From positions 1-26,302 of IMG/VR virus record IMGVR_UViG_3300005613_000359: a stretch of 26,302 bases of DNA; one strand, 5' to 3'. The position numbers were made by a program, and so were the translations under genes. This document shows positions 13,289-21,606 of the stretch, piece by piece. Source of the stretch: a virus. Within the stretch, counting starts at the first letter, position 1. Each line of letters opens with the position of its first letter. The notes beneath the pieces were generated by a model, which was given only the letters and a program-made list of their open reading frames with translations, ran no database searches and was not told the origin of the DNA.

Positions 13289-13761
13289 CCAAACTATACT
13301 ACAAGGCAGGATCAATAATAATAAGGGATGCGGTAAGCTCTGATACGTTTGAGTTAAGAGAAGCTGATAAAAAAGAAATCCAATATTCGCACCACAGGAC
13401 TCCAAAACAAGCATTAGCAAAGGGATTTGCGGAATCCACATTGTGCCTTACGGTAGAGGTAGAAGGCCATCCCGTAGGGATGTTTGGAATTGTTCCTCAA
13501 ACTATATTAAGTAAGACTGCAAGTATCTGGCTTTTGGGTAGTTCTGAAATAGAGAAAATTCAAAAGACTTTTCTAAAAAATTCAAGAAAATTTATAGATC
13601 TATTCTTAAGTTATTATCCATATCTTGAAAATTTTGTAAGTTGTGAGAGGAAAAGAACATTAAAATGGCTAAAGCATATCGGGGCGACAATAGAAACCCC
13701 AAAACCTTATGGAATTGAGGGGCGATTATTCCACCATTTTTATTTTCGGAGAGAAGCGTGA
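13285..13761 (+). CDS. T7 Gp13-like virion-associated protein (GNAT fold)
   Basis: The 158-residue protein starts in an ATGA overlap with the nozzle gene. It has the pattern of the T7 gp13 family: IIRDAVSSDTFELREADK, HRTPKQALAKGFAEST, EGHPVGMFGIVP, SIWLLGSSEIEK and ENFVSCERKRTLKWLKHIGA. Although the fold is GNAT-like, these proteins are linked to assembly of the internal core. T7 gp13 has 138 residues. The last seven codons overlap the 3' end of the minus-strand HNH gene, so the extreme C-terminus may have been supplied by that cassette. Confidence 0.82.
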   Translation: MTKLYYKAGSIIIRDAVSSDTFELREADKKEIQYSHHRTPKQALAKGFAESTLCLTVEVEGHPVGMFGIVPQTILSKTASIWLLGSSEIEKIQKTFLKNSRKFIDLFLSYYPYLENFVSCERKRTLKWLKHIGATIETPKPYGIEGRLFHHFYFRREA

Positions 13762-14174
13762 AACTTAGTGTGTTCGCTTTTACTGTCAAACAACTGCAAA
13801 TTTTCAGGCCTATCATCCTGTTTATTCTCAAAAGAATCAATAGGATATTTTGTGCCTTTATGGTGCACGACTTCTTCAGGTCTAAGATAACGGCCTATTA
13901 TCTGCTCCATAACAAGGCGAGATCTAAGGACATAATTTTGTTTACTACGAAAAGGATGATTAGAAACATAAATAAGTTTTCGACCGTCTTGTCTTATTAT
14001 TTCACCTTTCCAATGAGGACTATTTTCACCAAAGCGGTGAACGCCAAACATAGGATTATTTTTACCAGAAAACTCAGATCTTTTTCTACCTTTAAGTTTA
14101 GAAGGACGCCCAACATTAACTTTATGTCCTTTTTTAAATCCATGCGTAGGTTTTTGACCTTTTTGAAATGTCAT
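13740..14174 (-). CDS. HNH homing-type endonuclease A
   Basis: The 144-residue protein has two F-x-K-G repeats at its N-terminus (F3-Q-K-G, F13-K-K-G-H), likely DNA-binding, a linker with NPMFG and SPHWKG, and an HNH_3-type core: NHPFRSK (72-78), RLVMEQIIGRYLRPEEVVHH (86-105), DDRPENL (120-126, Asn125) and EHTKFH (134-139). All HNH residues (H104/H105, N125, H135/H139) are present, so activity is plausible. The start is the ATG at 14174, after GGAGG (14180-14184). The open frame extends upstream only by a TTG overlapping that site. It probably spreads by cutting related phages lacking the cassette. The gene runs convergent to the gp13-like gene and overlaps it by 22 bases. Confidence 0.87.
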   Translation of the reverse strand: MTFQKGQKPTHGFKKGHKVNVGRPSKLKGRKRSEFSGKNNPMFGVHRFGENSPHWKGEIIRQDGRKLIYVSNHPFRSKQNYVLRSRLVMEQIIGRYLRPEEVVHHKGTKYPIDSFENKQDDRPENLQLFDSKSEHTKFHASLRK

Positions 14175-14184
14175 TTTTACCTCC

Positions 14185-14282
14185 AAAAAAAGGTGGCCGC
14201 TTTCGGTGGCTTATCAGAAACGGTTAAGTCTCTACACCTACTCACGGCCAGATTAGACATAAAAAATCCGCTTCCGATAAGC
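14185..14282 (-). ncRNA. Structured leader RNA of HNH gene A (stem plus pseudoknot)
   Basis: Read on the minus strand, the RNA begins with GCUUAUCGGAAGCGG (14282-14268), which pairs over 15 positions with CCGUUUCUGAUAAGC (14223-14209); two of the pairs are G-U. UGGCCG in the enclosed loop (14250-14245) pairs with CGGCCA (14199-14194) downstream of the stem, forming a pseudoknot whose 3' strand ends nine bases before the GGAGG of the HNH gene. The same plan occurs at 21468-21572. Sequence shared by both but unpaired includes UUUUUAUGUCUAA, GUAGG, ACUUAACCGUU and CCGAAAG. The wobble pairs are valid only for the minus-strand RNA. A role in controlling HNH translation is inferred. Confidence 0.72.
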
Positions 14283-14288
14283 AATTGT

Positions 14289-14316
14289 AGTATAGCACAT
14301 CCTGGGAGATTGTCAA
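14289..14316 (-). promoter_or_regulatory. Sigma70-type promoter of HNH cassette A
   Basis: On the minus strand, TTGACA (14316-14311) and TATACT (14294-14289) are separated by 16 bases. The -35 box is perfect and the -10 box matches five of six. The predicted start, about seven bases downstream, falls at the first base of the leader stem, near 14282. Confidence 0.75.
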
Positions 14317-15069
14317 GTGATTAATGATTTCTTAAAAGATAAACGTATACATATGCATCATAGATATCCAGATGTTTTACCCTCTGTTGAAAAAAGATTC
14401 TGCGATCCTATATCTATCACAGTAACAGCACTTGCAATAAGCGGAGGCGTAAAGGCATACGGTGAGTATCAGCAGGGTCAGGCCCAGCAAGCTATGTACA
14501 GTTACCAATCTGCTCTTGCTGTGCAAGAAGCCACCGCTACTCGCAAATATGCCAAGATGCAGGAAAAGGCTATAGGCGAGGCGGCAGCAGCGAATATTAC
14601 CGCCGAACAAGCGGCGGCAGCCGAGGAGTCTCGCAGGCTTGCCAGAGACGTAGCCGAATTATCTGGCCAACAGAGAGCCACAATCGGTGCCTTAGGCATA
14701 GGTGGAGTTACCGCAGCAGATATCGCAGTCAGTACTTTTGATAAAGCGCGGTTAGATCAACTTGCCATACGTTACAACGCCAATATTAGAAGCTGGGGCA
14801 TAAGAGAACAGGCAAAGAGAGATATCTGGACCCTTGGGGAAGAAACTAAAATGAAGACATGGGCGTTAAAAGCAGAAGCAAGCCAATTGAAACTTGCGGG
14901 CAAACAAACAAAGAAGGCTGCCAGGATAGGAACAGCCACTACACTTTTAAGCACAGCGGCATCAATGGCCTCGGTAGGGGCACTGAGAGTTCCTACGAAG
15001 GCTGCTGGTGGCGGTGGAGCAGTAGCTTCCGCCGCTCGTGGTGGAGGATATGCAAGACTTACTTTTTAA
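14317..15069 (+). CDS. Internal virion protein, T7 gp14-like
   Basis: The 250-residue protein shows the pattern of podophage gp14-type ejection proteins: CDPISITVTALAISGGVKAY near the start, an Ala/Gln-rich helical stretch (QQGQAQQAMYSYQSALAVQE), GQQRATIGALGIGGVTAADI with LDQLAIRYNANIRSWG, and a small-residue C-terminus. In T7, gp14 (196 residues) forms the part of the ejection channel in the outer membrane. Relatives usually begin at or near M-C-D-P; here 27 extra residues precede CDP. The start is GTG 14317 with GGGAG about eight bases upstream, or ATG 14353. The odd N-terminus is next to HNH cassette A and may reflect its insertion. Confidence 0.8.
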   Translation: MINDFLKDKRIHMHHRYPDVLPSVEKRFCDPISITVTALAISGGVKAYGEYQQGQAQQAMYSYQSALAVQEATATRKYAKMQEKAIGEAAAANITAEQAAAAEESRRLARDVAELSGQQRATIGALGIGGVTAADIAVSTFDKARLDQLAIRYNANIRSWGIREQAKRDIWTLGEETKMKTWALKAEASQLKLAGKQTKKAARIGTATTLLSTAASMASVGALRVPTKAAGGGGAVASAARGGGYARLTF

Positions 15070-20803: not shown

Positions 20804-20980
20804 ATGAAAAAGATGATTGCGATATTTCTAATCTTGATATTTACATTCCTGATTGCTGCAGTATTAACTGACATGGTTGGGGCATATTCTTGGAAATCGG
20901 TTCTTGGAGGCGGACTTTACGGATCAACAGGGGTGGCTCTAAAAGTTGAATCAGATGGAACTTTATATATCCGTGATTAA
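20804..20980 (+). CDS. Truncated paralogue of the exported protein at 21626
   Basis: The 58-residue frame has AAGGGG before its ATG and a Sec-type signal (MKKMIAIFLILIFTFLIAA) with a likely cut after VGA. The remaining 32 residues, AYSWKSVLGGGLYGSTGVAL and KVESDGTLYIRD, align with AYDWGHAILGGLYSGTGVPL and KVDSEGQVYVNM of the protein at 21626, about 16 of 32 identical by eye. That protein continues for more than 110 residues, while this one stops where HNH cassette B begins (18-base convergent overlap). It is most likely the 5' remnant of a tandem copy cut short by the cassette, though a functional short form cannot be excluded. Confidence 0.65.
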   Translation: MKKMIAIFLILIFTFLIAAVLTDMVGAYSWKSVLGGGLYGSTGVALKVESDGTLYIRD

Positions 20981-21457
20981 GCGCCCATCAAAAACAATTT
21001 TAGAAGGCTTAACACTTGCAGGATTGCCATGAAATTTACGATGAACCGCATTACTGCTAAATGCCATAAGCATATGAGGGCGGTTATCATCTGTTGCTCC
21101 GAGATGATGAGGCACTTCTTTAGGCCTAAGGTAACGCCCGATCTGTTGCTCAACTACAAGGCGATGTTCAAACACATAACCCTTACTGCTACAAAAAGGA
21201 TGATTGGGTTTTTTAATAAAAACATATCCGCCAATATGCTTTATTCTTCCGCCTTTCCACATAGGATTTTCAGAACCCTTATTCATTTGATGACCCTTTT
21301 TGAATCCATAACCTTGATATACGCCCTTTTTAAACCCATGCGTAGGTTTGTGTCCTTTTTTATATTCTGTCGTCAGAGAACTATGTTGTCCTTTCTTAAA
21401 TTCGGTAGTAGGCGAAGAGCGATGTCCTTTAACAAATCTACCCAATTTATCACGCAT
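20963..21457 (-). CDS. HNH homing-type endonuclease B with five F-K-K-G repeats
   Basis: The 164-residue protein starts at ATG 21457, five bases after GGAGG (21467-21463); the frame continues upstream through the leader RNA but that part is not expected to be translated. Aromatic-x-K-G repeats start at residues 8, 20, 32, 42 and 52 (spacing 12, 12, 10, 10), with KPTHGFKKG shared with copy A. The core has NHPFCSSK (85-92), RLVVEQQIGRYLRPKEVPHH (99-118), DDNRPHML (123-130) and HRKFH (139-143). Where copy A has RPENL, this one has RPHML: the Asn of the HNH motif is replaced by Met129, so cleavage activity may be reduced or lost. Confidence 0.85.
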   Translation of the reverse strand: MRDKLGRFVKGHRSSPTTEFKKGQHSSLTTEYKKGHKPTHGFKKGVYQGYGFKKGHQMNKGSENPMWKGGRIKHIGGYVFIKKPNHPFCSSKGYVFEHRLVVEQQIGRYLRPKEVPHHLGATDDNRPHMLMAFSSNAVHRKFHGNPASVKPSKIVFDGRLITDI

Positions 21458-21467
21458 ATCATCCTCC

Positions 21468-21572
21468 AAATAAAGGCGGCGGCTTTCGGGTATCTGAAAA
21501 AGCAACGGTTAAGTTACTTAACCCTACGACCGCCATTATTTAGACATAAAAATACCGCAACTTTTTCAGATG
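21468..21572 (-). ncRNA. Structured leader RNA of HNH gene B (stem plus pseudoknot)
   Basis: On the minus strand, AUCUGAAAAAGUUGCGG (21571-21555) pairs with CCGUUGCUUUUUCAGAU (21508-21492): eleven perfect pairs, then G-U pairs around one mismatch, then three G-C pairs. UGGCGG (21535-21530) in the loop can pair with CCGCCG (21482-21477) after the stem. Compared with copy A, the fifth pair of the pseudoknot changed from C-G to G-C and the first from U-A to U-G, which preserves pairing. GGUUAAG/CUUAACC can form a loop hairpin here that competes with the inner three stem pairs. It is not kept in copy A. The predicted transcript start coincides with the beginning of the stem. Confidence 0.72.
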
Positions 21573-21577
21573 ACACA

Positions 21578-21606
21578 AGTATAACATTTAACTATTAACA
21601 AGTCAA
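21578..21606 (-). promoter_or_regulatory. Sigma70-type promoter of HNH cassette B
   Basis: On the minus strand, TTGACT (21606-21601) and TATACT (21583-21578) are separated by 17 bases. Both boxes match the consensus at five of six positions, and the -10 box is identical to that of cassette A. The predicted start lies at about 21571, the first base of the leader stem. Confidence 0.75.

Follow-up and report, generated by a model that had tools for sequence, protein, structure and literature searches.

The stretch at positions 14185-14282 of the window (the whole 26,302 nucleotides analysed), on the minus strand in front of the gene for HNH endonuclease A, raises the question of whether the RNA read from it folds into a pseudoknot next to the ribosome-binding site, as the original prediction proposed, and what such a leader would do for the gene behind it. 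The structural genes of the window resemble a phiV10-like podovirus module, with a terminase approximately 46-48% identical to those of phiV10 and TL-2011b, a head-tail adaptor (phrog_332), and internal virion proteins on both sides of HNH endonuclease A. Direct comparison of the window's DNA with known phages gave nothing useful.

Two pseudoknotted leaders in one window

Leader A lies between a sigma-70-type promoter and the endonuclease gene, and a second leader, B, precedes another HNH gene of the window. Their parts are as follows.

14289..14316 (-): promoter A, sigma-70-type, TTGACA-16-TATACT, +1 at ~14282
14185-14282 (-): leader A, knot and tract, in front of HNH endonuclease A
14268..14282 (-): 5' arm of P1, its first base the predicted +1
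14251..14267 (-): loop L1, AUUUUUUAUGUCUAAUC; UUUUUAUGUC-AA near-invariant among 38 copies
14244..14250 (-): 5' strand of Pa, UGGCCGU, the pseudoknot helix originally spotted
14239..14243 (-): 5' side of the internal loop, GAGUA, facing GAAA; GUA in 32/38 copies
14235..14238 (-): 5' strand of Pb, GGUG, the second pseudoknot helix
14224..14234 (-): loop L3, terminating in near-invariant CUUAA
14209..14223 (-): 3' arm of P1
14205..14208 (-): 3' strand of Pb, CACC, abutting P1 without a gap
14201..14204 (-): 3' side of the internal loop, GAAA; GAA in 35/38 copies
14194..14200 (-): 3' strand of Pa, GCGGCCA
14185..14193 (-): pyrimidine/U-rich tract CCUUUUUUU, separating the pseudoknot from the Shine-Dalgarno (SD) sequence
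14180..14184 (-): SD of leader A, GGAGG, assigned from the sequence
13740..14174 (-): HNH endonuclease A, 144 aa (P0002), PHROG HNH endonuclease families, E=8e-16
21578..21606 (-): promoter B, TTGACT-17-TATACT
21477..21571 (-): leader B, 74% identical to leader A
21571-21555/21508-21492 (-): P1 of leader B
21535-21529/21483-21477 (-): Pa of leader B
21524-21521/21491-21488 (-): Pb of leader B
20963..21457 (-): HNH endonuclease B, 164 aa (P0001), PHROG HNH, E=4e-18

In leader A, P1 consists of 15 pairs (14282-14268 with 14223-14209), exactly two of them G-U, and begins at the transcript start given by the promoter, all as had been proposed. The crossing helix Pa, close upstream of the SD, was likewise located correctly, but it comprises seven pairs (14250-14244 with 14200-14194) rather than six, and a second crossing helix, Pb (GGUG/CACC, 14238-14235 with 14208-14205), had been missed. 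The leader is an H-type RNA pseudoknot, in which bases of a hairpin loop pair with a stretch lying 3' of the hairpin itself. Folded as a single sequence, leader A showed a moderate excess over shuffled controls (z = -2.56, 3/200) and is therefore unconvincing on its own; the structure is settled by leader B, whose differences from leader A within stem and knot preserve the pairing, and by 36 copies from outside the window.

A covarying family of phage leaders

Together with leaders A and B, these 36 copies from IMG/VR phage contigs form an alignment of 38 full copies, so that the family occupies at least 38 places on more than 20 phage contigs; one additional truncated copy (L193) was left outside the alignment. 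The leader turned up at two phage loci (L004 and L006) in a search with the HNH B protein, and an alignment of HNH proteins also retrieved true copies. Of four pattern scans over viral contigs, three did so as well, and the first had L003 as its sole match, a chance match within a structural gene. A covariance model with P1 as its only structure recovered copies in loci that had been retrieved on other grounds and at further places on the same contigs. With a second covariance model, true copies scored at least 67 bits and noise at most 25 bits. Antisense matches in the covariance searches, at 17-25 bits, came from the opposite strand of P1 or were noise. None of 50 other contigs, nearly all with a related HNH gene, matched the leader model. 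In bacterial and archaeal genomes, a strict pattern that would miss most copies matched three times by chance, and each of these matches lacked both a proper stem and an endonuclease gene behind it. Since three of the pattern scans demanded TATGTCTAA or a near form of it, the apparent conservation of L1 is inflated; a similar motif was found in copies from protein or whole-contig searches (e.g. L048, L053, L055, L056, L103, L149-L155 and L168-L170).

The covariance search in further homologues suggested with the original prediction revealed covariation in all three helices, with two-sided changes in 16 of the 17 aligned pairs of P1, all seven pairs of Pa and all four of Pb among the 38 copies. 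Helix segmentation of individual copies maximised pairing and is thereby biased, and the unbiased test is an alignment fitted to P1 alone, combined with shuffles and slides. In that alignment 92.1% of cells were paired, compared to 67.5% after shuffling and 36-48% when the partners were slid, and none of 500 shuffles matched the observed value on any measure. Because only P1 entered the fitting, the covariation of Pa and Pb constitutes an independent test. When halves were swapped between copies, the mean score was 19.6, compared to 29.9 for a copy's own halves. Pb alone occurs as GGUG/CACC, AGGU/ACCU, AGCGU/ACGCU, AACGU/ACGUU, UGCGU/ACGCA, AGUCU/AGACU, GAGU/ACUC, GGAG/CUCC and others. Under symmetric scoring, the P1 pairs included 70 G-U against 17 A-C combinations, which identifies the HNH-sense RNA as the functional, selected strand, as the two G-U pairs of leader A had originally been taken to indicate.

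Pb follows directly 3' of P1, so that the outermost P1 pair adjoins it, and the spacer between Pa and Pb is an internal loop with NGUA opposite GAA(A) (AGUA in 23/38 copies). To judge from these letters, AGUA facing GAA resembles a loop-E/G-bulge (sarcin-ricin-like) motif. Altogether, approximately 25 unpaired letters are near-invariant across L1, L3 and the internal loop. The L1 triplet (14260-14258 in leader A), which follows a purine-rich P1 arm, is AUG, GUG or UUG in every copy except L103, where it is AUA (37/38). The open reading frames starting there range from three codons to ones ending far inside, or overlapping, the served gene, and a leader peptide was not adopted because its length varies and its stop position and frame are not kept. 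A hammerhead or other ribozyme was also discarded, as the few motif-like letters of copy A are absent from the other copies and Rfam gave no match.

Whether the RNA belongs to a known class such as HEARO had been left undecided by the original prediction. At the gathering threshold, Rfam 15 matched only an unrelated tRNA in the window and 12 further loci, where the HEARO model and the group I and group II intron cores were also unmatched, and a search of 14100-14400 at E<=5 returned chance matches only. No description of the leaders was found in the open-access literature, and we class these phage leader pseudoknots as a new RNA family.

Spacing and the genes served

All 38 copies are preceded by a sigma-70-like promoter with a spacer of 16-18 nt, and in 37 of them P1 starts 5-8 nt past the -10 element (median 6), i.e. 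at the predicted +1. At the other end, with six pairs of Pa counted, the helix stops 19-21 nt short of the start codon in 32/38 copies, despite varying loops and sequences, and this spacing is alike ahead of HNH and replication genes. The first 9 nt 3' of Pa are 72% U and 2% G. The SD lies outside P1, Pa and Pb; in approximately six copies it is weak or absent while the knot is kept. SD openness was 0.51 with the pseudoknot strands held out of other pairing, compared to 0.36 for free folding and 0.37 for the control, a modest gain seen in ~20/32 copies by ordinary folding with the knot imposed.

Most copies precede homing-type endonuclease genes of different families, namely NUMOD3+HNH_3, PF01844-type HNH (L021, L149), further HNH types (L170, L178) and NUMOD1/HNH-like (L150). 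Three copies, in different phages, stand ahead of replication-type genes, encoding a DnaD-like/O-like protein (L152, E=4e-8), a replication initiation protein (L154, E=3e-8) and a phrog_28809 protein with a weak replication initiation match (L053). A search for relatives of the L053 gene returned only the two known near-identical contigs, and other relatives of the L154 gene were without this leader family. Several genomes hold more than one copy ahead of different genes (four in G001, three each in G006 and G007), and the leader-carrying phages have few genes in common. Leader similarity correlates weakly with protein similarity (rho 0.29), as expected of an exchanged module. At L028:2778-3000, the leader is intact and the HNH gene is deleted to a C-terminal remnant, making this a decayed homing gene, and in Pseudanabaena phage Pan5 homing genes lie directly upstream of a relative of the L154 gene. 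The leaders of replication genes could thus be remnants of lost homing genes, or the phages' own.

Further observations concern the surroundings of these genes. By simple ORF calling on the window (13740-14174 and 20963-21457) and on contigs G002, G006, G007, G008, G011, G015 and G016, leader-carrying HNH genes among long, probably late structural genes are mostly antisense to their neighbours, and those in replication-type blocks mostly share the orientation of the genes around them. A tRNA gene lies near a leader-carrying HNH gene on the G001 contig (L155:1641-1705). At L165:1352-1500, a 48%-identical relative of the L154 replication gene has a leader that differs in sequence and, by eye, shares the topology: a hairpin GGATAGG..CTATCC at +1, a crossing 11-pair helix AAGACCGCAAG/CTTGCGGTCTT, a U tract and an SD. 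Another leader of this topology, AGCGGTCAGCT/AGCTGACCGCT crossed by GCCCACC/GGTGGGC, lies ~70 bases before an HNH-relative gene in L008, with the crossing strand GGTGGGC near the start codon.

A putative module for translation initiation

Our preferred reading, offered tentatively and at a little under even confidence, is that the leader is a portable pseudoknot module at the mRNA 5' end through which translation initiation of early genes is controlled; put more generally, it is probably a portable switch, or if its effect is positive a booster, for making the served proteins. It would act in cis on an early-type phage mRNA transcribed from the first P1 base, the RNA folding into one H-type pseudoknot in which P1 (~15-17 bp) abuts Pb, followed by the NGUA/GAA internal loop and Pa. 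The folded body would end ~20 nt before the start codon, near the expected upstream edge of an initiating 30S subunit, and would keep the SD clear of competing pairing. Knot and U-rich strand together may form a landing site for the 30S subunit, by analogy probably via protein S1, while the mRNA 5' end would be buried in the helix junction. Homing-endonuclease genes would carry promoter and leader as a portable expression head, which some phages would use for replication genes. The fixed start-codon distance is what points to translation initiation, the +1 register of P1 suggests an added effect on the 5' end, and because the leader precedes genes for unrelated proteins, whatever acts on it has to be general. 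Translational control of the endonuclease by a structured leader, as originally suggested, is supported by the +1 start, the start-codon distance and the G-U strand bias. The role of S1 assumes a host S1 of the enterobacterial kind, and copies with a GGAGG SD seem to need no enhancer.

The near-invariant letters of L1 and L3 look, on their sequence, to exceed the needs of a general ribosome landing site and to be more like a specific binding site. They speak for the strongest rival, a translational operator in which a putative trans-acting factor common to the phages or hosts would bind the knot and thereby switch the endonuclease and replication genes jointly. Such a factor could be a small ligand or a phage protein of replication or ssDNA binding, on the model of T4 gp32. 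The ~25 near-invariant unpaired letters including those of the internal loop, the several copies per genome before different genes, the DNA-metabolism functions served and the T4 gene 32 precedent of a leader pseudoknot followed by an A+U-rich ribosome-binding site (PMC3014915) all fit this possibility; however, the carrier phages share few genes and the encoded protein cannot generally be the bound one, and we regard the operator as rather unlikely. The variety of products also speaks against two ideas raised by the original prediction from the placement of the leader: that the HNH protein regulates its own gene, and that the RNA functions in homing, for instance as a guide, cofactor or ribozyme. 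Homing-endonuclease genes do follow most copies, but the knot stands at the same spacing before three replication-type genes in different phages and before endonucleases of different families, none of the 50 other contigs (nearly all with a related HNH gene) has it, and Rfam yielded no ribozyme or HEARO match, leaving these explanations very improbable.

Protection of the 5' end, in which the knot would bury the 5' nucleotide and stabilise a short-lived early mRNA with translation effects secondary, is suggested by a P1 that begins at +1 with zero 5' overhang and has its outermost pair directly beside Pb, but it leaves the fixed start-codon distance and the U-rich tract unexplained and is unlikely as the main function. 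That tract, following a G+C-rich helix of 6-9 bp, could instead make Pa part of an intrinsic terminator of pseudoknotted form, which some signal would relieve. We consider such an attenuator improbable, given that an ordinary terminator hairpin was looked for and not found, many U tracts are interrupted (UUUAUUU, UUAUAUUU) and attenuation does not need a fixed start-codon distance. P1 also amounts to an almost perfect inverted repeat next to a mobile gene, and a DNA-level binding or recombination site could mimic RNA structure; the 70 to 17 excess of G-U over A-C strongly disfavours this, as do the covariation of the crossing helices and the +1 register of P1, and the idea is scarcely credible.

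Among known systems, the leader pseudoknot of gene 32 in T4, T2 and RB69 is a translational operator for gp32 (PMC3014915), and it shares with the present leaders the setting in a phage mRNA leader, the H-type fold, the A+U-rich strand leading into the ribosome-binding site and a gene of DNA metabolism. The gene 32 knot is situated far upstream (a region of 67 nt preceding the start codon), belongs to a single gene and is bound by that gene's product (PMC3014915), whereas here P1 of ~15 bp sits at +1, ~20 nt lie between the knot and the start codon, and the genes served are unrelated. Of the features of a gene 32-type operator, the leader pseudoknot and the unstructured A/U-rich ribosome-binding region are present, and the products are endonucleases and replication-type proteins, not an ssDNA-binding self-repressor. 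The tisB +42 mRNA carries a 5' pseudoknot and a nearby unstructured strand, proposed to anchor the 30S subunit via S1, which prefers pseudoknots (PMC7708055). Both elements recur near the 5' end here, but the tisB knot is ~100 nt from a sequestered ribosome-binding site and the present one abuts an open site, where S1 may bind by analogy. RNA structure also governs the expression of the phage homing endonucleases I-TevI/II/III, segB and mobE, whose inhibitory upstream hairpins sequester the ribosome-binding site in read-through transcripts (PMC2988022, PMC3014915). In contrast, the leaders studied here have their own promoter, a pseudoknot and an SD outside the helices, whose computed openness rises modestly with the knot imposed.

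The HEARO/OMEGA RNAs of IscB and IsrB likewise are structured RNAs adjoining an HNH gene; however, the proteins here are of 144-165 aa without a detected RuvC domain, the small NUMOD3/HNH proteins served matched no RuvC family, and the knot is an mRNA leader. The present leaders, where they precede a replication-initiator gene, are also like that of ColIb-P9 repZ. In repZ the pseudoknot pairs GGCG with CGCC, and the system reportedly depends on a stem that sequesters the SD, on a leader peptide and on an antisense RNA. A conserved leader ORF is unsupported here, the NUG at the L1 position in 37/38 copies opening frames of varying length and register. The pseudoknot upstream of the IncI-alpha ColIb-P9 replication-initiator gene is mentioned in a passage of PMC10286972 that cites Asano and Mizobuchi 1998.

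A wider proposal, which we advance as possible rather than probable, is that promoter and +1 pseudoknot form an expression head common to homing and replication genes of diverse phages, in which a compact RNA fold with a loop-E-like core would either dock the 30S subunit directly, with little or no SD, or sense a common infection signal. On this view mobile genes would have adopted, or else disseminated, a regulatory RNA that originally belonged to the phages. As a covariation-supported family of 38 copies, absent from Rfam 15 and with a geometry fixed to both +1 and start codon, the leaders lend themselves to testing how translation is set by a pseudoknot in contact with the ribosome-binding site, and how homing endonucleases gain controlled expression that moves along with them between unrelated phages.
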